From positions 186,001-250,000 of the forward strand of contig NC_050729.1 in NCBI RefSeq assembly GCF_014133895.1: a stretch of 64,000 nucleotides of DNA, given 5' to 3'. The DNA is from Torulaspora globosa. Its lineage: Eukaryota; Ascomycota; Saccharomycetes; Saccharomycetales; Saccharomycetaceae. The notes under the pieces are model-generated. The model made no database searches. It saw nothing but the letters and a program-made list of their open reading frames with translations, and was not told the origin of the DNA. This document shows positions 38,401 through 49,337 of this stretch, in pieces (the stretch's first letter is position 1; each line of letters opens with the position of its first letter). The position numbers and the translations under genes are program-made.

Positions 38401-39102
38401 ATCAGATGGCAAGGGAGGAGCCGCTGCTGCTGCTGGACGGGCGAAAACTTTCAACGCCTTGAACCTTGATGCTTTCTTATCGTCTGGTGCGTCTTTCTCA
38501 TACGAGTAAACCGTGTGCTCAACGTTCCTTCTTGCTCTTTCGAAAGTCGGACACATATCTTGACAAGTCCCCTGGAAAGCGATAGCCTCTGTCAGATCCT
38601 TCGCCAGATCTGCTTTATCGACTAATCCCTTCTTTTCCATCACTTTTCTCTCAACATCTCTCATTTTCTTCAAAGCATTATACAGTTGATCGACGTCTTC
38701 GATGCTCGCCTCCAGTTCCAACATCTTTTGTTGATTAGCCCGGTCCCATGGGTCCTGAACAAACTCCTTCTGCTTCAACTGTGGCTGTTGACCAATCAAA
38801 AACTTTGGTATCTCTCTGGGAGCGTGATGAATCCTTTCGAACCCCATATTTTGCGGATCTCTCGCTAGCGGACCAACATCAAGATGGTCATGGATGTAAC
38901 TGGAACGCGTATCTGCCCTTCTCTGTAAGCTCATGTCCTTCTTCTTGCGTTGCAGCCCATTTGCCGACCATTTCGGCTCAGATTCAACGACTTGACGTCC
39001 TCCGTTGTTGCCCAGCTCCATACCTGCAGTTGTAGGACCCACATTATTCTGGAAGAAGCTGAAGTTGGGTGCGGTTGCAGCAGTACCAAACGAAGTATTC
39101 AT
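35434..39102 (-). CDS. SAC3: TREX-2 mRNA export scaffold Sac3
   Basis: A 1222-residue protein (S. cerevisiae 1301), scaffold of the TREX-2 complex (with Thp1, Sus1, Cdc31, Sem1) at the nuclear pore. The N-terminus has short FG-like sequence (FGTAATAPNFSFFQNN) that can contact Mex67. The Sac3/GANP domain begins with GTCQDMCPTFERARR and continues through the M-region (NFYKRFFQLLVSGAVPFLMS). A basic helix around EEEERLAIQKKRRRKAVSWD precedes the Cdc31/Sus1-binding helix region. The C-terminal part is poorly conserved. The ATG at 39102 is the first in frame. Confidence 0.95.
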   Translation of the reverse strand: MNTSFGTAATAPNFSFFQNNVGPTTAGMELGNNGGRQVVESEPKWSANGLQRKKKDMSLQRRADTRSSYIHDHLDVGPLARDPQNMGFERIHHAPREIPKFLIGQQPQLKQKEFVQDPWDRANQQKMLELEASIEDVDQLYNALKKMRDVERKVMEKKGLVDKADLAKDLTEAIAFQGTCQDMCPTFERARRNVEHTVYSYEKDAPDDKKASRFKALKVFARPAAAAAPPLPSDVRPPHVLSQTLDYLVDNLLVTLPSSEEFLWDRMRSIRQDFTYQNYSGPEAVYCNERIVRIHLLIIHVMGRSKVDFSLQQELEQLHKALITLAEIYDEVRAMGGTCPNEAEFRAYALLSKIRDPEYDKNIQELPQEIFQNELVQMAICFRRIVSSSNFNERGYIKTENCLNFYKRFFQLLVSGAVPFLMSSFMELYVNEVRFYAFKALSHSLNKRHKAINPDHLIDDFLFNDYKELESFCEYYSITLTSDGVDLKSLPYQSHKLAERQPLKHAILKCVDKMLDRTSYPALIKADPKNTRTGNYIQVTHHQGARPAHAIVTEDDVKSATPTLQNAIVSSGSGFHKTAVPQLKTETTFWQSVNKADHASNETLPSKLGANKIMQPDHLNDKLTETIERKATRELEQKEEEERLAIQKKRRRKAVSWDVAEGLVKDVVNNQISRLIEETLQKHTARDSYIKKLAKSLYHAFLHEKLYQVFLESKADAFRHQKLVLNSWSRWNSKFKSLLAKRKLEAKKKSELQDVGRLLGVPGLKRSKLAATPRSDSMFAFTLPSSSSKNLTLSPIVDEVNKFSVQHEKKKEVWEPFDMAKIYLDILAQRSKPPDSVSAADIFIYGNNWSAISNSWIMAKFNVSDRKVPVTVHSSRLDMKIHCIDANYNPALFNNVQLLVFNTGVTDSNIFDLEMKLRQDGEELIKLITGISLNTNICFSIMLLYWESAETPLHDSTIYKCLRINRILKGYNSVIQDVKIVNITGSAPEKELENALKQMAERFQFRLTDRGKYHVSLLKRRSLAGVPNQKAPPEPSNDIDRKMRKMLEQEQDKRKEDPDARNTYAHLRSHLAASPRMNKRKLPVLLSKSKERPFRTPLATRSLSSSSPAVASHLAIKVRGEPRRHQSVAPGTPSYCTNLSHLPVVSNSSLLAQHPDSAAMSNTSLDGPALIREPALFRTPVNSTTTNQMNSNDSMALDRAVPESVLELKALIESVKRKVNNH

Positions 39103-39286
39103 AAAGCCACTCCTGGTAGCGAATCCCCGGTACAGATACGATACGGTACACTCGAAGTGGTTACTTTCAACTTTTTTTTCTCTTTGACGTCTGCAAGCGA
39201 TTCCCGGATAACAATGCCCAAGAAGCTCTAATTTATAGTATTCTGTTAATCAAGTAAGATACCCAGGGCTGGGCTACCTCCGCCTA

Positions 39287-40261
39287 TTAAATAAAGTAGA
39301 TACTGAATCTCGATGCTTGTATAGCATCGCTCTGAATGTAGTGGACCGGAAGACCGTACTCGAGCACGGCCTTGTTCAAGAAATCGGCGACCACTTCTTG
39401 TGCTCTCATATGAATTCCTATGAGGCAGCGTGTCTGGATGCTGCGGCCTCGGAAATATTCCAAAAGCTGGCTGAGCGTTTTCAGGAAAGGGTCGATCAGG
39501 TAGTCGTTGTAAACCACGTCCATTGCGACGATATATATGGTGGAGCAGTTCGACGCCAATTGTATTTCGAAAGGCGCCTCCAGAGTCGGAATCTGGAACT
39601 TCTCCCAGTCCAACGGCATGGTCTCCAGGTTCACTCGGGGTTTTGCATCAATACCGCTTGCTGAGTCCTCTATCTGCAGGGATTTCGATACACAGCGTCT
39701 CTTGTTCAAATGTAGCAAATTGCGGCCAATGTTGGCCTTCATGCCATTGATGAGACCTCGCTGATCGGTGCATATGTAGGCTGCGACGTAGTTCCCGAGC
39801 ACCACAGGCAGTATCCCCGAGGTGCCGCCGCCCAGCTCAAAGATAGCCGTGGAGGAACCGAGCAACGGCGGCACCGCCACGTTTCCAACGGAGCCGCCGG
39901 CTCTGAACGGGCTGGCTTCAGGATCGTACAGCAGCCATCGAGCGAAGAAAGGCGTCGTGGACCACAGCACAAACCCGGTGGTCGAGTTGTCGTTATCTCT
40001 CGAAGAGTGTAAACTAGTTATCGCTTGCGAGACCTCAAGATAGTAGCGGTCCTGGAGCCCTGCAACGGGATCCCTTCTCTTGCTCTTCCGTTTGGGTGTC
40101 GCAGGAGGCTCGAAATCTACAGCGATCGATCTTGCAGCGCTGTCGACAATCCCCAGGTCCTGCTTCAACGTTTCTGCGCCGGCAGCGAGAAAAATGTCCA
40201 CAGGTGGGCGAGGGAGAACGGGCTGCAGCCCGTCGCTGCGAATTTCTTCTTTGCAGAGCAC
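39287..40261 (-). CDS. RKM5: Ribosomal protein lysine methyltransferase Rkm5; start codon unresolved
   Basis: A seven-beta-strand methyltransferase that methylates Rpl1. The conserved core is clear: ITSLHSSRDNDNSTTGFVLW, then STTPFFARWLLYD, the SAM-binding region ELGGGTSGILPVVLGNYVAA and CTDQRGLINGMKANI. The odd feature is the 5' end: from the upstream in-frame stop (TAA) to codon ~190 there is no ATG in this frame, and the first ~30 residues do not resemble the S. cerevisiae N-terminus. The coordinate 40261 marks a GTG near the start of the open frame, not a demonstrated start. A near-cognate start, an indel, or 5' damage next to the homing element are all possible. No branch-point TACTAAC is seen upstream. 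Confidence 0.85.
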   Translation of the reverse strand: MLCKEEIRSDGLQPVLPRPPVDIFLAAGAETLKQDLGIVDSAARSIAVDFEPPATPKRKSKRRDPVAGLQDRYYLEVSQAITSLHSSRDNDNSTTGFVLWSTTPFFARWLLYDPEASPFRAGGSVGNVAVPPLLGSSTAIFELGGGTSGILPVVLGNYVAAYICTDQRGLINGMKANIGRNLLHLNKRRCVSKSLQIEDSASGIDAKPRVNLETMPLDWEKFQIPTLEAPFEIQLASNCSTIYIVAMDVVYNDYLIDPFLKTLSQLLEYFRGRSIQTRCLIGIHMRAQEVVADFLNKAVLEYGLPVHYIQSDAIQASRFSIYFI

Positions 40262-40747
40262 AAATGAATACTTATTATTTACTTATGAGTCTATTACTCG
40301 TTAAGATGTTTGAGCCAGCTAACCATGTCGTTTTTCTATGATCTGCACTGACGCGTCAGGCGCTGTTCGCGTAAAAGTCCTGGGTGTCTTAGCTTTGTCT
40401 TGGCAACGATCCAAATTCAATCCTGATGTTGGGCAATAATAAAACGATGAAACCAAAACGCCTTGGCGAGCACAGTCATGCGTCGCTTCCGTATCAGATG
40501 CTGCAAAACGATCGAGGCTTATTTGTCTCTCTCGGTTCTTCCATCAAAGTGAGAGATAGTCGGATGTTTCATCATTATCGATAACTTAGAATAACAGAAA
40601 TAATGACGGGGCAAAATGGCCTGACAATCTTTCCCTCACGACCTTATGGCATTGTTTGATTTTGAAACAGCGTACCACTACATTGCGCCATCCCTGTAGT
40701 GTATAAAAGAGCGACTGATTTCGTCTCATTCGGCCAGTCATGGTTAA
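40262..40747. other. Region between RKM5 and the WHO-type gene
   Basis: These 486 bases should contain both promoters. TATAAAA at 40702-40708, 40 bases before the endonuclease ATG, is a good TATA box. I found neither SCB-like CACGAAA repeats as in the S. cerevisiae HO promoter nor FBA1-derived coding sequence. No other feature is recognised. Confidence 0.5.
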
Positions 40748-42625
40748 ATGAAGCAATGCAGACTAATGAACGGTGATCCAGAATTCATTGGTGGTTTGGT
40801 ACCAGGTACAAAGATTTTCCTAGCCAACTGGAAGACCGTGCCAATTGAAGTCATCAAAGTTGGCGATGAAGTTCTAACCTCTAATGGAGGTGCGGCAAAA
40901 GTCGAGGCTGTGTTAAGAGATGATCACCATGATTTGGTCACAATTCGACAAAACACCAGGCACCGCGCACACTTGAAAGATCCCTCGGTGGAGAAACCTT
41001 GGGGCATAATCGAAATTACATGCTCCAAGAGACAAAAACTGGTCTTGAGCACAAAGCAGAGGATCAAGATATCCAAGAGAGGGCGTAGAGGTTTCATGGA
41101 GGTTTCCGTGTCTCAGCTGGCTGATCGTCAAACGAAGGATGGTCGAATTATCAAAATCATCAAGGATAAATCGAGACGGTTCCCTCTGACAGCCGAGAGG
41201 TCGGAGATCATTGACTACGTAAAGCCAATGGTCTTGCGGAGCGAGGGAAGATGCTTCACTTGGCAATGTGAGGCTGGCGACTTGGTGGAATACGTTAACA
41301 AAAAACGTCAGGCTGGTACCAGGATGATCTTACAACCTTTCTCGATAGAGATACCAGTATTGGGGCCATGGTTGCAACAATGTTTCGGAAGGAACATTAC
41401 TGCAGGGCAGCTTGAAGCCATGGCATGGTTGTTAGGGTTCTGGATTGGTGACGGTTGTAGAGAAGGAGCAAAATTCGCTTTGAACTCTGAAGATGACGAT
41501 GTCAACACCAGGCTTGAGGAGAATGCAAAAGTTTGGGGTATGACTCTCAGAATGTGGTATGGGGAGGGCCGTAAGGCATCAGGATTCCTTCACACCTATA
41601 CTGGCGCGGAACGTCTTTGGAACGTAAACAACCCGCTTGTGAAGGTGCTGGAAGGGTTAAGATTCTACGAGAATGGCAAAAGAAAAGATCGGAAGAACGT
41701 TCCACTATTCATGCGAACAGAAGAAATAGTGGTGCGTGAAGCGTTTCTCGCAGGGCTAATAGATTCTGATGGATATTGCGATATCCAAGACGGGTCTATT
41801 CGTGTGATAATTCCGACTGCTTACCCGCCTATTAGAGACGGCATGAGGTCCATAGGCCGTTCTCTTGGTTTGAATGTCTCCACCAGTTTCCGTGGCGCTC
41901 ACTTTTATGAACGTCATGGACAAAATAAGAGTGATACATGGACTTTCTACTTATCTGGTGGGACAAATGATGAAACACTCAGGTCGATACTGAACAGATG
42001 CTCCTGTGAAAGGAAGCGAAACCCGAAAATCCAGTACTGCACGAACACGGACTTTGAGGAATTTGATTCCGATTACCAATCGGAGGAAAATGAAAATGAT
42101 CCTGAGGACAATGACGATCTATCAGGTATAAGGGAGGGCTTTGAAGATGATCTTGAAGATGATCCGGAAGAACAACAAGATGGCACATTCAATTTTGGCA
42201 AGTTCAGGTTTGAAATTATCCCAGGTCGTAAAGATGCTGTCATAGGACTGGTACTGTCGGGTACCTCTAACCGAACTTTTGTCACGGATGATCAGATTGT
42301 ATGTGCAAGTGCCGAATTGAGTACGGAAAGACTTGAATCAAGACCGTATTTCAGAAGGAGGTGCCTATCATGCCGTACAGAAACGACACCAAAGTGGTGC
42401 AAGGTTCCCTGGTTGGGGTATGTTCTAGACAGGATATGCCTCGCTTGTTCGACACGTTATTCGCGCACTCATATGCGTTGTAGTAACGATCTCTGCAACT
42501 GGGTCTTCAGGCTCAGAGTTCAAAAGGGAAAAAAGCCCAGATGCAAGAAAAGGCAAGTTGCAAAGATCGTTACTCGCCAATGTGAGCGATGTGGAAGTAC
42601 TCCGTTGCAAGAGGGAAATCCCTAG
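40748..42625 (+). CDS. WHO: HO/VDE-like LAGLIDADG homing endonuclease (WHO family)
   Basis: A 625-residue endonuclease with the HO plan. Residues ~15-160 resemble an intein Hint domain (GLVPGTKIF, then RQNTRHRAHLKD and DGRIIKIIK), but the splicing Cys1 is replaced and the C-terminal His-Asn is missing (FVTDDQIVCAS, 511-521), so splicing is not expected. Both LAGLIDADG helices keep their metal-binding acid: LLGFWIGDG (228-236, Asp235) and LAGLIDSDG (334-342, Asp341). An acidic insertion spans ~435-478. The C-terminus has HO-like CxxC zinc-finger pairs (539/542, 564/567, 612/615). A TATA box lies 40 bases upstream. The reading frame is intact, so activity is plausible. HO itself is the alternative; the FBA1 fragment favours WHO. 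Confidence 0.88.
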   Translation: MKQCRLMNGDPEFIGGLVPGTKIFLANWKTVPIEVIKVGDEVLTSNGGAAKVEAVLRDDHHDLVTIRQNTRHRAHLKDPSVEKPWGIIEITCSKRQKLVLSTKQRIKISKRGRRGFMEVSVSQLADRQTKDGRIIKIIKDKSRRFPLTAERSEIIDYVKPMVLRSEGRCFTWQCEAGDLVEYVNKKRQAGTRMILQPFSIEIPVLGPWLQQCFGRNITAGQLEAMAWLLGFWIGDGCREGAKFALNSEDDDVNTRLEENAKVWGMTLRMWYGEGRKASGFLHTYTGAERLWNVNNPLVKVLEGLRFYENGKRKDRKNVPLFMRTEEIVVREAFLAGLIDSDGYCDIQDGSIRVIIPTAYPPIRDGMRSIGRSLGLNVSTSFRGAHFYERHGQNKSDTWTFYLSGGTNDETLRSILNRCSCERKRNPKIQYCTNTDFEEFDSDYQSEENENDPEDNDDLSGIREGFEDDLEDDPEEQQDGTFNFGKFRFEIIPGRKDAVIGLVLSGTSNRTFVTDDQIVCASAELSTERLESRPYFRRRCLSCRTETTPKWCKVPWLGYVLDRICLACSTRYSRTHMRCSNDLCNWVFRLRVQKGKKPRCKKRQVAKIVTRQCERCGSTPLQEGNP

Positions 42626-42632
42626 GGAGAAG
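42614..42632 (+). repeat. 19-bp direct repeat, left copy (contains the endonuclease stop codon)
   Basis: GGAAATCCCTAGGGAGAAG. It matches 42812-42830 at 18 of 19 positions. The one difference (A for C) turns the serine codon TCG of FBA1 into TAG, which is the stop codon of the endonuclease gene. Confidence 0.85.
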
Positions 42633-42638
42633 TGTTTT

Positions 42639-42805
42639 TGAAATCCGTTTTTGATTCAAGCCAATCAGTTCCACATACAATCTGCTCATCCGTGACAAAA
42701 GGGAAGTTGTTCGACGGATCATCTTCAAAGCTCTACATTATACCTGATAAATAGTCATTGCTTCGTTTCACAAGAGCATCTGATCAGTATCGACCTGAGT
42801 GTTTC
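42639..42805 (-). pseudogene. Inverted, internally deleted fragment of a second WHO-type gene
   Basis: Read on the minus strand, this stretch is colinear with the intact endonuclease gene in four blocks: 42805-42760 matches 41972-42017 (43 of 46); 42759-42718 matches 42110-42151 (37 of 42); 42700-42672 matches 42277-42305 (28 of 29); 42660-42639 matches 42332-42353 (19 of 22). Intervening sequence is deleted, and block two contains an in-frame TAG. The differences show it derives from a diverged relative, not from a recent inversion of the neighbour. It sits exactly between the two 19-bp repeats, six bases from each. Confidence 0.85.
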
Positions 42806-42811
42806 GTGGGA

Positions 42812-42830
42812 GGAAATCCCTCGGGAGAAG
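42812..42830 (+). repeat. 19-bp direct repeat, right copy (first codons of the FBA1 fragment)
   Basis: GGAAATCCCTCGGGAGAAG. It encodes G-N-P-S-G-E of the aldolase tail and marks exactly where FBA1 similarity begins, so it is a candidate for the old cleavage or joining site. Confidence 0.8.
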
Positions 42831-42946
42831 ACAGCCCAAACAAGAAGTACTTTGACCCAAGAGTCTGGGTCAGAGAGGGCGAAAAGACCATGTCCAAGAG
42901 AATTGCCGTTGCCTTGGAAGACTTCAGAACCACCAGCACTTTGTAA
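42812..42946 (+). pseudogene. 3'-terminal fragment of FBA1 (fructose-bisphosphate aldolase)
   Basis: Forty-four codons plus stop encode the C-terminus of class II aldolase: GNPSGEDSPNKKYFDP, then RVWVREGEKTM and ending DFRTTSTL. The length from GNP to the stop equals that of S. cerevisiae Fba1, where the tail ends FRTTNTL. Similarity stops abruptly at its left edge, at the 19-bp repeat; the codons before it belong to the inverted endonuclease fragment. No catalytic part is present. It is an untranslated relic as far as can be seen, characteristic of WHO integration scars. Confidence 0.9.
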
Positions 42947-43110
42947 GAGAGCTTTATTATGACTAAATAAGTTTACTTTTGTTGAAATATTTTACTGAAT
43001 GATTGACGTTTAAGCAAAGGTGTATCCACCTCCGCAGGACAGCTCGCCAACGCGTTCCACATCGCATCAAACACACGCGAGTACCCTGTTGCCACAGACC
43101 TGCGACGATG

Positions 43111-43138
43111 GGCGCCGGCGGCACCGATGACGGTGTTG
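43111..43138 (-). pseudogene. Relic of a HOM2 3' end
   Basis: Twenty-eight bases match the real HOM2 gene at 43937-43964 with 25 identities. All three differences are at third codon positions and synonymous, so both encode N-T-V-I-G-A-A-G-A. Orientation is that of HOM2. Beyond it the frame is lost, with a weak echo (IVAGLW against ILIAEIL). The Ty3 fragment begins three bases away. Confidence 0.6.
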
Positions 43139-43140
43139 AG

Positions 43141-43620
43141 GTACAACCCATATACGTAGGTCCCTACCACGTAGTCAAAAAGATACATGACAACGCTTAT
43201 GAACTTGATCTAGACTCCCACGAAAAGGCTCACCGGGTTGTTAACGTCCAGCACCTGAGGAAATTCACATACCGCACAGATGCCTACCCCAAAGAGAAAC
43301 CACGGACCTCCTATGAACGTATTCTGAGAGCCAATGAAGTTATAGCACTAGTTGGAATTGATATCACACATCATATTTACTTATGCCGTATGCGTGATGT
43401 TGACCCGACAATAACAGTCGAATACTCCCAAGCGGAATTCGACAAAATCCCTGTCAGCATACGCATATCCGTGCTCGATAACTTCAGGCAACTCTATGAA
43501 TCCCAAGGGGGTCTCGAGAGGGGGGAAGATGTTGCATCTACAACTACTACAAGCTCAGGTATAGTAGAGGCTAGAAGTCATGAACACAGTAAGGCAACCG
43601 AAGGGATCAACCAACCATAA
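43141..43620 (+). mobile_element. Ty3-like retrotransposon fragment (C-terminus of integrase)
   Basis: An open stretch of 159 codons plus stop corresponds to the extreme C-terminus of a Ty3 (yeast Metaviridae) Pol polyprotein: IYVGPYHVVKKIHDNAYELD, then AHRVVNVQHLRKF, a RANEVIALVGIDITH block and NFRQLYESQ. This includes the chromatin-binding GPY-type module. Protease, reverse transcriptase and the catalytic integrase core are absent, and I see no LTR on either side. The frame has no proper start, so it is a relic. Its own position is odd for Ty3, which integrates beside tRNA genes; none is nearby. Confidence 0.85.
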
Positions 43621-43891
43621 AAGCCATCAACGAAGAAGCAACGTCCCATAACATTGGCCTGATAAGAAGCCGCCATCGGATTGGTCAATGACCTCTTCGA
43701 GGGAGCCTTCGTCTTCATCCACAGGAGAGCCAATGGTAATAAAGTTTTTTACCTCTCACAGATATGCTCGTCGATGAGCTCCCCGTCCAGCTGCACCAGT
43801 CGCAGAACCATCTGCTGCCGTCGCTCTCTAGGGCTGAGAGTGCACTTTGATCAACTAGACGATAATTATTTACGTGAAAGATACGCTACGC
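43621..43891. other. Unassigned stretch between Ty3 fragment and HOM2
   Basis: These 271 bases follow the Ty3 stop codon, where a 3' LTR would be expected, but I recognise none. On the minus strand there are short coding-like pieces (around 43740-43810 and 43660-43740), including an acidic GSPVDEDEGSLEEVIDQS segment. I cannot assign them. Confidence 0.4.
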
Positions 43892-44959
43892 TTAAATCAA
43901 CTTCTTGGCCAACAGGATCTCCGCGATCAAGATACCGGCGCCAGCAGCGCCGATGACGGTGTTGTGCGACAGCACGACCATCTTGAAATCAAGAACGGGA
44001 TCCTCTCTGATTCTGCCGACAGAGACGCCGTAGCCGGCGTCTCTGTTTCTATCCAGTCTTGGCTGCGGCCTGTCGTTTGCCTCGAGGACGTGGATGGTCT
44101 GCTTGGGCGCCGAGTGGCACCCGAGCTTGTACGCGTCGCAGACGTACTCTGCCAGACATTTTTTCACCTGCTCCACCGACGGAGCAGGTCTGTTCTTGAA
44201 CTTGAGAGAGATACACTCGGTGTGTCCGTCGGAGACCGCGACACGGTTGCACTGAGCGGACACCTTCATCTGCTCGGAGGGGATCAACTCGACCGTGGAG
44301 CGGTCCGCGGACAGCGTGCCGAGGATCTTCTTGGTCTCCCACTCGATCTTTTCCTCCTCGCCGCCGATGTACGGGATGATGTTGTCGAGGATGTCGATGC
44401 CGGGCACGCCTGGCGAGAACCCTGCGCCCGAGATCGCCTGCAGCGTCGTTGTAGTCAACGCTTCGATCGGCCCGAATTTTTCGACAAGCGGCTTCAACGG
44501 CGCGACCAGACCCGCGGTGCTACAGTTCGAGATACACACGATGAACCCACGCTTCTTGGAAGCAACCATGTCGAGATGCTCGGGATTCACGATCGGCACC
44601 ACCAGCGGCACGTCAGCGTCCCGTCTGTGGTTCTTGGCGTTCGACACGACCGCGAGCCCAGCCTCGACGAACTGTTTTTCGATCGCGCCCGCGTAGTCCG
44701 CGTCGAGACCCGAGAAAACCACGTCGCACTGCTGGAACAGCTCAGCTCTGCACTCGCACACTACAATCTGCTTCGCAAACTCGGGAAGCAGCTCGGTCTG
44801 CTTCCAGCTGACCGCGTCCACGTACTTCTTGCCGGCCGATCTGGGCGACGCCCCGAGCACACGCAGCTCGAAGTCCGGATGCTCCGCTAGCAGCAGGATG
44901 AATCTCTGGCCGACGGAGCCGGTGGCCCCCAGCACTCCAGCAATCTTCTTTTCGCCCAT
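43892..44959 (-). CDS. HOM2: Aspartate-semialdehyde dehydrogenase Hom2
   Basis: A 355-residue enzyme (S. cerevisiae 365) making aspartate semialdehyde for threonine, methionine and homoserine synthesis. The NADP-binding loop GVLGATGSVGQRF is at 8-20, and catalytic Cys146 sits in CISNCSTAGLVAPL. The substrate region SAQCNRVAVSDGHTECISL and the C-terminal LSHNTVIGAAGAGILIAEIL are present. A short loop found in S. cerevisiae before the catalytic segment is missing. The ATG at 44959 (MGEKKIAGVLGATG) matches the family. Codons are strongly GC-ending, unlike genes to the left. The 3' end faces the element cluster, which contains a relic of this gene's tail. Confidence 0.96.
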   Translation of the reverse strand: MGEKKIAGVLGATGSVGQRFILLLAEHPDFELRVLGASPRSAGKKYVDAVSWKQTELLPEFAKQIVVCECRAELFQQCDVVFSGLDADYAGAIEKQFVEAGLAVVSNAKNHRRDADVPLVVPIVNPEHLDMVASKKRGFIVCISNCSTAGLVAPLKPLVEKFGPIEALTTTTLQAISGAGFSPGVPGIDILDNIIPYIGGEEEKIEWETKKILGTLSADRSTVELIPSEQMKVSAQCNRVAVSDGHTECISLKFKNRPAPSVEQVKKCLAEYVCDAYKLGCHSAPKQTIHVLEANDRPQPRLDRNRDAGYGVSVGRIREDPVLDFKMVVLSHNTVIGAAGAGILIAEILLAKKLI

Positions 44960-46328: not shown

Positions 46329-47423
46329 ATGGACTCGCTGTCTAGGAAGATTCAGAACCTGGGGATCCATGATATCCGGAACGCGGCGCGGTTTGCGCAG
46401 AATATGATAGTGCAGTACGAGCCGTACCAGGTCGACATTCGCAGGGCGACAAACACGGACTCGTGGGGTCCGACGCCGAAACATCTGGCCAAGGTGCTCA
46501 GGAACCGGTACCAGGTGCCGCTGTATCTGATGACGGAGTACACGCTCAAGCGGCTGGTCGACCATGTGGCTACGCGACCCAAGAACCTGTACGAAAAGGC
46601 GCGCAAGGACTACGTGAACTACGGGTCCGAGTGGCGGGTGGTGCTCAAGTGTCTTGCGGTGCTGGAGTTTCTGCTGCTCAACGTCGCGGATGGCGACGAG
46701 CTCAACCAGGTGCGCAGCTGTCTGGTGACCCACAAGCATCTGCTCTCTCGCGAGGTGATGGGCTACCGTGTCGGGGTGTCCAGCGACGGCAAGATGGAGG
46801 TGCACGAGCGCGGGATCCGCAAGAAGTGCGAGCAGGTGCTGCAGCTGCTCGAGGACTCGCAGTATCTCAAGCGCGAGCGCCAGCGACACGCCAGGAACAA
46901 CCTCAAGATCCGCCAGCAGGGCGAGTCGTCGCTGTACAACGCGAACCCCGTGGACAGCAGTGGGTCGTCGCCGGCCGCAGAGGCGCTCGACGACGACGAG
47001 GGCGCCGACGACGAGCTGCCGGAAACCGTGCCGCAGCAGCAGCGCCAGCGTAGGCGCTCCCACATCGAGGAGCAGCGCCGCCAGCGGCGCGAGATCCTCA
47101 GGGAGAGGATCAAGAACACCGAGATCGAGCGCAAGAGGCAGCTCGAGCAGGCCAAGGCCCGCGATGAGCCCGATCTGCTCGACCTGATCGACTTCGACGA
47201 CCTCGACGGGGTAGACGACGACGACTTCGGCGACTTCCAGGGCGGCGACGCCAGCGCTACGTCCTCGAACCCAACGGCCAGCGACATCCTGGACCTGCTA
47301 GATTGGACTGCCGCGCCGGCAGCTCCAGCGGCCTCGACAGATGCTCCCGCTGCCGAGAAGAACGCCCCCAAGAAGCACGACGCGTTCGCTGACCTTTTCT
47401 CGCACTCGAAGTCGCTGATATGA
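46329..47423 (+). CDS. ENT5: Epsin-like clathrin adaptor Ent5
   Basis: A 364-residue protein (S. cerevisiae 411) that works with Gga and AP-1 adaptors in trans-Golgi to endosome transport. The ENTH/ANTH-type domain covers about 20-165 ([20 protein letters not shown], then [20 protein letters not shown]). A basic coiled stretch ([20 protein letters not shown]) precedes acidic adaptor-ear motifs (DDDFGDFQ) and a C-terminus ending [12 protein letters not shown], the family tail. The linkers are shorter than in S. cerevisiae. Codon use is GC-ending. Strand and place match YDR153C. Confidence 0.95.
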
Positions 47424-47463
47424 TTTAGCACTGCTTAGTTGTACATACGTAATCCGTTTTATA

Positions 47464-48222
47464 TCATAGTTTTCTCAACTTGTCGGTCACTGCGCTCTCT
47501 AGCGATTCTTCGTTCTCCTCGTCGTCGCCGGCAAGACCGCGCTCAAAGATGGTACGTCCGGTCATCCTACCGTGATGTGCTTCCAGTCGCCTCTTCTCGT
47601 CCCGCTGATCGATGCCCAGCTCCTTTCTGAACTTGGCTCGCCACTCCAGGAACGACTCGCGGGTCACCTTGGTGCCCCGGAACTTCTTCTGCTCCTCCCT
47701 CTCGCGCGCCTGCAGCTCCAGCTCATGCTGTCTCTCCAGCTTCCCCAGCTGCTCCACGAACCACGTCTCGCACAGCTCCTTCACCGACGAGATCAACGTA
47801 AAGCACATCTGCATGCCAAGCAGCAAATCGTTGTCGATCTGCTCCTCCAGCAGCACCGACAGCTCCGGCACGAACCCATCGAAGTGTATCTGATCCGGCA
47901 GACTCTGCAGTTTTCTGACCACCTTGTTCCCGTGATCGTCGAACTCTTCCTCGCTCTCTTCCTCGTCTTGCTCGTCTGGCCGCGTTTCCACCGCCTTGAT
48001 TCCTATCACTGGAGCTTCATCAGGGTACCTCTCCGGCAGCTCGAACTCCAGACACATCGTATGTTCCGTGGTCAGCCCATTGGCATCCTCCAATTGCGGT
48101 TCCAACCGCACCTCTACCTTGAATTTCACGCCTGGATAGTTCCGATTCAATACTTTCAGCTCATCCGGATAGATAGACTCCAACACTTCCAACTCTTGCT
48201 CCTGCTCACCGCGGTAGTCCAT
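47464..48222 (-). CDS. GIR2: RWD-domain protein Gir2
   Basis: A 252-residue cytoplasmic protein (S. cerevisiae 265) that binds Gcn1 and the GTPase Rbg2 and modulates the general amino-acid control response. The RWD domain fills the N-terminal ~120 residues (MDYRGEQEQELEVLESIYPD, then ELPERYPDEAP). An acidic loop and the conserved C-terminal block GTKVTRESFLEWRAKFRKEL follow. The ATG at 48222 matches the family start. It is convergent with ENT5 and divergent from the TIS11-type gene. Confidence 0.95.
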   Translation of the reverse strand: MDYRGEQEQELEVLESIYPDELKVLNRNYPGVKFKVEVRLEPQLEDANGLTTEHTMCLEFELPERYPDEAPVIGIKAVETRPDEQDEEESEEEFDDHGNKVVRKLQSLPDQIHFDGFVPELSVLLEEQIDNDLLLGMQMCFTLISSVKELCETWFVEQLGKLERQHELELQAREREEQKKFRGTKVTRESFLEWRAKFRKELGIDQRDEKRRLEAHHGRMTGRTIFERGLAGDDEENEESLESAVTDKLRKL

Positions 48223-48242
48223 TCTGGCCAATTCCTCCTAAT

Positions 48243-48250
48243 TGCACCCA
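48243..48250 (+). promoter_or_regulatory. Aft-type iron-responsive element 1
   Basis: TGCACCCA fits the Aft1/Aft2 consensus YRCACCCR. It lies 254-261 bases upstream of the TIS11-type gene and just upstream of the GIR2 ATG. Confidence 0.55.
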
Positions 48251-48352
48251 TCTCGTTTGCTAGCTCATCTCAAATTCATCACTTGGCTCGAATTTTTCAA
48301 TTCCATGTGCGCTCTACCAGCGTGGAAATTGCCATTCTCGACACGGCGATTT

Positions 48353-48360
48353 TGGGTGCA
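48353..48360 (-). promoter_or_regulatory. Aft-type iron-responsive element 2
   Basis: TGCACCCA on the minus strand (TGGGTGCA on plus), a second perfect YRCACCCR match, about 145 bases before the TIS11-type ATG. A partial third copy (CGCACCCT) is at 48437-48444. Confidence 0.6.
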
Positions 48361-48503
48361 AATCATCAAGCAATTGGGACTTCGAGGTGGCTTTGGAAAG
48401 ACAGCTGAGTCAACAACACCCTTAGATAGGCGACGCCGCACCCTCGAGTCAATTGGCCTGGGATTTGTATATATAGCGTGTAGGTTTAGTAGTTGCCAAG
48501 GCC

Positions 48504-49337
48504 ATGCGGACAACTTCGGTGGGAAAACAACGGATGGAAAGGATGGCATACACTAATACAGCGGCGTTCAGTGCGTCGACGGGACCCTCGTCCGTCTTTT
48601 CGAGCGATGATGACCCTTACGACGCTCGCATCCGGGAGATAGAGGAGTACTATGTGAAGAGTCTGTTGAACGATGACGACGAAGAGACAGAGTTTGCGGA
48701 AGCCATGAGCAGCGAAAGTTGGAGTTTTGGGGGATCATCAAAGCCGCCCTTGCGCGGGTACCAACCATTGGGGTATTTCAGATCGTCAATGCCGGCCATT
48801 GTCGAAGTTTCTTCGGGCTCCCGGAGCCCGAAGCAGTTCAGGAATCCATTGGAAGTCGATATCAACAGAAATCTCATGCCAAGCGTCGATCCACTCCCAC
48901 TGACCACCGAGAACCTGCAGAGACTCACAATTTCACCTGGTGCGGCAAAGGAAAGCAGGAAAAGTGAGCACATCGCCAATACCACTCGCAGCGTACCGGA
49001 CTCGCAGCAACAGTTGAACAAAGAACTGTACAAGACGGAGCTTTGTGAATCGTTCACGACAAAGGGAAATTGCAAATACGGCAACAGGTGCCAGTTTGCG
49101 CATGGACTAGGCGAGTTGAAGTTCAAACAGAGATCAACGAATTTCAGGACCAAACCATGTGTCAATTGGACCAAACTGGGCTATTGCCCTTATGGGAAGC
49201 GTTGTTGTTTCAAACACGGCGACGACAACGATATTAAGGTTTATATGAAGGCCGAGAACGGTTTGAAGGCCTCTGCAAGCAAGAGACCAAAGAATCTGCA
49301 TGCTAACGTTAGGGCTCTGCAAAAGATCACATGGTAA
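48504..49337 (+). CDS. TIS11: Tristetraprolin-type mRNA decay factor (ancestor of TIS11/CTH1)
   Basis: A 277-residue CCCH zinc-finger protein (S. cerevisiae Cth2/Tis11 285, Cth1 325). It binds AU-rich elements and promotes decay of mRNAs for iron-using proteins when iron is scarce. Finger 1 spans Cys181-His200 (YKTELCESF lead-in), finger 2 Cys219-His238 (FRTKPCVNW lead-in); both keep C-x8-C-x5-C-x3-H spacing. The N-terminal half contains serine-rich patches including SSGSRSP. A TATATATA box is at 48468-48475, and Aft-type sites lie upstream, suggesting induction by iron deficiency. It is single-copy in this region where S. cerevisiae has two. Confidence 0.94.
   Translation: MRTTSVGKQRMERMAYTNTAAFSASTGPSSVFSSDDDPYDARIREIEEYYVKSLLNDDDEETEFAEAMSSESWSFGGSSKPPLRGYQPLGYFRSSMPAIVEVSSGSRSPKQFRNPLEVDINRNLMPSVDPLPLTTENLQRLTISPGAAKESRKSEHIANTTRSVPDSQQQLNKELYKTELCESFTTKGNCKYGNRCQFAHGLGELKFKQRSTNFRTKPCVNWTKLGYCPYGKRCCFKHGDDNDIKVYMKAENGLKASASKRPKNLHANVRALQKITW

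Follow-up and report, generated by a model that had tools for sequence, protein, structure and literature searches.

An HO/VDE-like endonuclease gene accompanied by a piece of FBA1, in a region where FBA1 itself is absent, raises the question of what this element is and how it came to lie there. The gene is found in the window (the whole stretch of DNA analyzed, 64,000 nucleotides, positions 186,001 to 250,000 of Torulaspora globosa contig NC_050729.1), which is part of contig C3 in an assembly of eight contigs (C1-C8) totaling 9.28 Mb. An earlier note on this DNA had described an intact endonuclease gene, directly followed by a 3' fragment of FBA1, between RKM5 and HOM2 and occupying 40748..42946. 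We found that the gene is indeed an intact 625-codon open reading frame: the product of 40748-42625 contains the Pfam domains Hom_end_hint and Hom_end, and its residues 13-427 are similar to PI-SceI/VDE (E 2.1e-48). The FBA1 fragment is also present (91.5% identity over 212 bp); however, it does not follow the reading frame directly, because an inverted WHO relic lies between the two. Both the location and the extent required revision, as the inserted DNA lies inside RKM5, where it splits codon 21, and its 3553 bp (about 3.55 kb) reach from ~40197 to 43749 (Table 1).

Table 1 Features of the insert in RKM5 and of its flanks. Positions are those of the window; matches are given as contig and position in the assembly.
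Feature	Position	Strand	Description
RKM5 3' part	39287..40196	-	From the third base of codon 21 through the stop codon; frame still open
Piece A	40196..40282	+	87 bp; 97% to C2:122956-123042, 3' end of a PEBP (TFS1-like) gene
Piece B	40282..40365	+	84 bp; 95% to C2:168894-168976
WHO10 upstream region	40364..40747	+	Common to other WHO10 copies
WHO10 gene	40748..42625	+	625-codon ORF, intact; intein-like endonuclease with C-terminal CxxC zinc finger
Inverted internal WHO relic	about 42636..42808	-	Several blocks with deletions between them
FBA1 3' end and downstream flank	42812..43023	+	Stop at 42944-42946, then 77 bp of flank; 91.5% over 212 bp to C7:163112-163323
Piece D	43027..43109	+	83 bp; 92% to C1:733497-733579, within a macro-domain (POA1-like) gene and antisense to it
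HOM2 3' end copy	43111..43138	+	28 bp; 25/28 to 43937-43964
Ty3-like element fragment	43136..43690	+	Includes an integrase C-terminal domain; 77-81% to further copies in the genome
Piece E	43689..43749	+	61 bp; 97% to C8:23853-23913, antisense to the 5' part of a DAL5-like gene for an MFS transporter
RKM5 5' end	43750..43811	-	Codons 1-20 and TA of codon 21
HOM2	43892..44959	-	Aspartate-semialdehyde dehydrogenase; intact neighbor

Joining the two parts of RKM5 yields a 323-codon frame with a final stop only that matches RKM5 orthologues, demonstrating that the gene is interrupted. At the break position the orthologues (P0001-P0006) read ERYIEL or DRYIEL, and with the native codon reconstructed from these proteins the flanks join TA and C of a single codon, an apparent insertion without loss or duplication of target bases. 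We thus rejected insertion of an integrase-type DNA transposon or LTR element, for which no target-site duplication is seen. In the other T. globosa assembly RKM5 is intact (P0003, 320 aa, 77% identical over 300 aligned residues); judged partly by locus tag, P0003 lies there on the same contig as ENT5 (P0082, 81%), the names RKM5 and ENT5 being taken from database records. Since RKM5 is uninterrupted in that assembly and in five further orthologues, we also rejected the possibility that this position is the HO locus.

The window's assembly (locus tags HG536) and the other one (HG537) are both filed as T. globosa, and identity across the pair of proteins compared is only 77% for RKM5 and 81% for ENT5. 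By these two proteins the assemblies differ as species do, so a strain-specific insertion is not in itself proof of recency. The 303-codon remainder of RKM5 is 76, 80, 67, 62, and 60% identical to five outgroups, and the intact HG537 allele is 70, 77, 63, 62, and 56% identical to the same five. Decay of RKM5 was rejected because the remainder is evolving no faster than the intact allele, and an open remainder with no raised rate suggests that the insertion is recent.

A misassembly that joined FBA1-locus sequence to RKM5 is unlikely because both flanks meet within one RKM5 codon and leave an open frame. Furthermore, the WHO10 copy next to FBA1 is broken and has diverged, and an insertion at RKM5 has been reported from Illumina plus PacBio data (PMC7282813); we therefore give an assembly error next to no credence.

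That reported insertion is almost certainly the element described here, by its match to the published description. In their account of T. globosa, Coughlan et al. (2020; PMC7282813) place WHO10 inserts at CMC4, RKM5, and MIN6 in strain CBS764 and at BXI1 and E1850 in CBS2947. The inserts measure 2.8-6.6 kb, all five have an FBA1 fragment immediately downstream of WHO10, and the CMC4, RKM5, and MIN6 host genes are described as disrupted without duplication. Our element agrees with the CBS764 insertion at RKM5 in gene family, host gene, disruption without duplication, and size range, and it likewise contains other gene fragments and has an FBA1 3' fragment downstream (with the inverted WHO relic between); nothing in the passages of that paper dealing with these inserts contradicts the match. 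The earlier proposal that a WHO element had moved away from FBA1 is thus upheld by a WHO-clade protein with an FBA1 fragment at RKM5, and it is already known, the CBS764 insertion having been in print as WHO10 since 2020. What the piece-by-piece donors and joins would add is detail beyond the main text of that paper, as far as that text could be compared. Among the openly licensed PMC papers listed, titles and the starts of abstracts revealed no work on WHO elements besides PMC7282813 and its companion Insight (PMC7282806).

If Who10 now recognized RKM5, and the insertion interrupted its own site, the element would be a classical homing gene spreading between RKM5 alleles. The apparent zero-loss insertion inside a codon, the intact orthologue in the other assembly, and the intact WHO10 gene speak for such retargeted homing. 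However, the three CBS764 inserts sit in three unrelated genes according to the same account (PMC7282813), and the break-point sequence matches the proposed Who6 core (CGCATTT; PMC7282813) in five of seven bases, a similarity expected 18% of the time by chance and so not evidence for a Who10 target motif, which we rejected. We consider retargeted homing improbable.

Phylogenetic analysis placed the protein with other T. globosa WHO10 proteins and not with HO. The tree comprised 49 of the 54 proteins, i.e., P0077 and P0078 (VDE) and those of P0027-P0076 with at least 560 aa; three shorter rows, P0079, and P0080 were omitted. The window protein and four other T. globosa proteins (P0028-P0031) form a clade (P0027-P0031, support 100/99) of three HG536 members, the window's included, and two HG537 members; these numbers agree with the three inserts of CBS764 and the two of CBS2947, and we accordingly take HG536 to be CBS764. 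The T. globosa relatives include HG536_0B03810 and HG536_0A08540. The 14 HO-labelled rows form one group (100/100) that excludes the window protein; the HO label, like the WHO10 label on HG536 and HG537 proteins, was assigned by us, and one of the HO rows, P0076, is recorded as Hop. According to a warning from the tree program, the deep joins bring long branches together, leaving the HO/VDE/WHO branching order unsure, and the WHO10 clade, as recovered in this tree, is independent of that order.

A separate gene on C4 (581 codons, 75% identical to Zygotorulaspora mrakii protein P0074) is HO, judging by its similarity to the HO-labelled group, and the window protein is 26% identical over 431 aa to this HO-like protein of its own genome. 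HO has a domain plan in common with WHO10 (hint, LAGLIDADG, and zinc finger), whereas WHO10 is multi-copy and falls outside the HO group. The earlier note had also seen in a WHO gene at a new locus a possible parallel to the origin of HO; this is unsupported, given the separate HO gene, the presence of WHO10 sequence at about a dozen other places in the genome, and the broken host gene, and we rejected domestication as a second HO. The likeness to the VDE/PI-SceI intein in VMA1 lies in the sequence similarity noted above; in contrast to that intein, and as in the WHO family, WHO10 is a stand-alone gene encoding an intein-like endonuclease fused to a C-terminal zinc finger, with no exteins. An intein was rejected because WHO10 has its own start and stop codons and lies on the strand opposite RKM5. 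In an alignment of 14 proteins, C539, C542, C564, C567, C578, C583, C612, and C615 are near-invariant. Pairwise dN/dS among the genome's three intact WHO10 genes is 0.56-0.66, which indicates that the protein is under some constraint; by this measure, the WHO10 genes here are constrained yet fast evolving.

URS1 (core GGCGGC) and MSE (CRCAAAW) are meiotic promoter motifs of S. cerevisiae. Searched with these S. cerevisiae consensus sequences only, the five WHO10 upstream regions scanned (301-417 bp each) all lack both motifs.

Elements that home to FBA1 (e.g., WHO6 of T. delbrueckii) have the intein-like endonuclease, the zinc finger, and the FBA1 3' fragment in common with WHO10; an endonuclease that cuts FBA1 near base 668 is a further defining trait of that class. 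The window element differs in that it is not beside FBA1 and there is no duplication of a host 3' end. Its FBA1 piece includes 135 bp of coding sequence (42812-42946, the last 135 bases of FBA1), compared with the fragments of ~400 bp reported in T. delbrueckii in the same article (PMC7282813). An element located at FBA1 and replacing its 3' end was rejected because FBA1 lies on C7 and the window gene on C3. As the earlier note had observed, the window contains no FBA1 gene: the sole PF01116 (aldolase) match in the assembly is an intact FBA1 on C7 (ORF 163189-164271, 360 codons). This gene lies beside WHO pseudogenes, i.e., a broken WHO10 gene and then a second, more distant WHO relic. The second WHO relic at FBA1 (L053, C7:159751-161439) is 45% identical to the window protein over part of its length; its upstream region matches the WHO10 upstream region at 92% identity, as though members of the FBA1 WHO cluster had exchanged promoters.

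Counting the window's own and a short piece on C4, WHO10 sequence occurs at 13 places away from FBA1, or 12 after merging those within 10 kb. Seven of the 12 merged places are on C2, which makes up 14% of the genome (P = 0.0005 for C2 and 0.004 for any chromosome; the counts are lower bounds). WHO10-derived places on C2 are at 80k, 89k, 124k, 287k, 650k, 709k, 1065k, and 1263k. Judging by the neighboring genes, together with the 2020 description by Coughlan et al., we take C1:1517k to be the CMC4 insert and C2:709k to be the MIN6 insert. At C4:169642-169777 (L019), a 262-codon ORF terminates in ~136 bp of FBA1 downstream flank that corresponds to the right end of the WHO10 element, and among the matches listed there was none to a WHO gene nearby.

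Within RKM5, WHO10 is embedded in a patchwork of sequence found elsewhere in the genome. Control stretches at 47250-48850 (1601 bp) and 38900-40195 (1296 bp), 2.9 kb in total, match only themselves in the assembly, whereas the insert has many non-self matches. Assignments to HOM2, PEBP, macro-domain, MFS, TIMELESS, and thioredoxin come from domain and sequence searches, and the yeast names TFS1, POA1, DAL5-like, TOF1, and MPD2-like for loci here are presumptive. The donor of piece A lies 809 bp from another WHO10 relic, and that of piece B is located upstream of a TIMELESS-domain (TOF1-like) ORF, stopping 24 bp short of it. In four of the seven copies aligned at 40364 the upstream region is preceded by the FBA1 3' end, which is missing at RKM5; a fuller element would thus run from FBA1 end through WHO10 to FBA1 end, the RKM5 copy being without the left one. 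The inverted WHO relic is bounded by a 19-base FBA1-derived direct repeat (18/19 identical; 42614-42632 and 42812-42830), and because the last residues and the stop of WHO10 fall in this repeat, the window protein ends in EGNP and the other two intact copies in PLQG. Piece D is also present in the WHO10 copy at C2:89k. The HOM2 scrap differs from resident HOM2 at three bases, all of them synonymous when read by eye, which hints that the scrap may have been copied from a diverged HOM2 allele. Finally, seven joins, when read by eye, show apparent overlaps of 2, 1, 2, 3, 0-1, 2, and 0-1 bases.

To locate donors, sequences flanking each of the three intact inserts (RKM5, CMC4, and MIN6), i.e., 3 of the 13 places away from FBA1, were used as queries against the whole assembly. 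Matches to WHO10 and FBA1 flanks, the HOM2 scrap (local), and Ty3-like matches (repeated) were not counted, and one 38-bp inverted match inside the CMC4 query region was also dropped. This revealed six single-copy donors, four for RKM5 and two for CMC4, and none for the MIN6 flanks. Two of the six have another WHO10 place nearby, at distances of 809 and 421 bp. Under random placement, two or more of six would fall within 1, 2, 5, or 10 kb with P = 1.4e-4, 5e-4, 0.003, and 0.01, respectively, at thresholds (1 kb included) that were picked after the data were seen. For the RKM5 insert alone, one of four donors is within 1 kb (P = 0.011), and four of the six donors are on C2 (P = 0.005). The closeness of two donors (less than 1 kb) to other copies of WHO10, together with a patchwork joined by 0-3 bp overlaps and no apparent loss or duplication of target bases, favors the capture of fragments at a break.

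The same fragments can be read in another way. Gene fragments in the T. globosa inserts, mostly 3' ends, may be fossils of earlier host sites (proposed in PMC7282813), in which case each scrap would mark a former residence and would be carried along from host to host. The presence of piece D in two copies and of common right-flank pieces in the C2:124k and C2:287k copies fits this model, and so does piece A: this PEBP 3' end faces WHO10 just as FBA1 does at its native locus, and its donor gene adjoins a WHO10 relic. However, pieces B, D, and E have donors that are separated by at least 43 kb from every WHO10 place detected or that sit on a contig lacking such a place. Three of the scraps (D, E, and the HOM2 copy) run antisense to WHO10, and neither D nor E represents the 3' end of a gene. 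A reading of the RKM5 scraps as paired fossils was rejected because no left and right pair comes from one gene. We regard the fossil-host model as a minority possibility for this insert.

We instead lean, with modest confidence, toward break and capture. A double-strand break in codon 21 of RKM5 would have been repaired by end joining, with a patchwork of copied DNA taken up in the process: the WHO10 unit with its FBA1 tail, scraps of other loci, a scrap of neighboring HOM2, and a retrotransposon fragment. Some scraps may already have been aboard the element, as piece D, common to the C2:89k copy, would suggest; for others the source is a gene adjacent to another WHO10 copy, so that sites frequented by WHO10 would have supplied part of the captured DNA. 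The cutter was perhaps a Who10 endonuclease freed from its requirement for the FBA1 site, and that Who10 itself made the RKM5 break is a real possibility to which we do not commit. There is precedent at HO breaks in S. cerevisiae, where end joining is reported to capture several fragments along with retrotransposon DNA with little or no microhomology (PMC11724301, PMC10802722). Judging from the description of templated insertions at such HO-induced breaks (PMC11724301), the RKM5 insert is alike in its several distant fragments, retrotransposon pieces, local scraps, and short or absent microhomology, and it differs in that the captured DNA includes the nuclease gene itself. A more speculative extension, which we hold only tentatively, is that WHO10 is a mobile element without fixed ends: the nuclease would cut several loci per cell, repair would stitch the gene and the debris into one break, and the scraps would be a record of other cut or insertion sites.

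Together, these data make a published WHO10 insertion that arose by break and capture the probable best explanation of the locus. How WHO10 integrates at sites other than FBA1 was described as not clear in PMC7282813, since there are no homologous flanks to guide it. The joins at RKM5 bear on that question: they suggest that DNA was captured when a break was closed by end joining, with an excess of scraps from the vicinity of other WHO10 copies. The route of integration is relevant in turn to how an endonuclease gene can change its target, which is among the steps proposed for the origin of HO.
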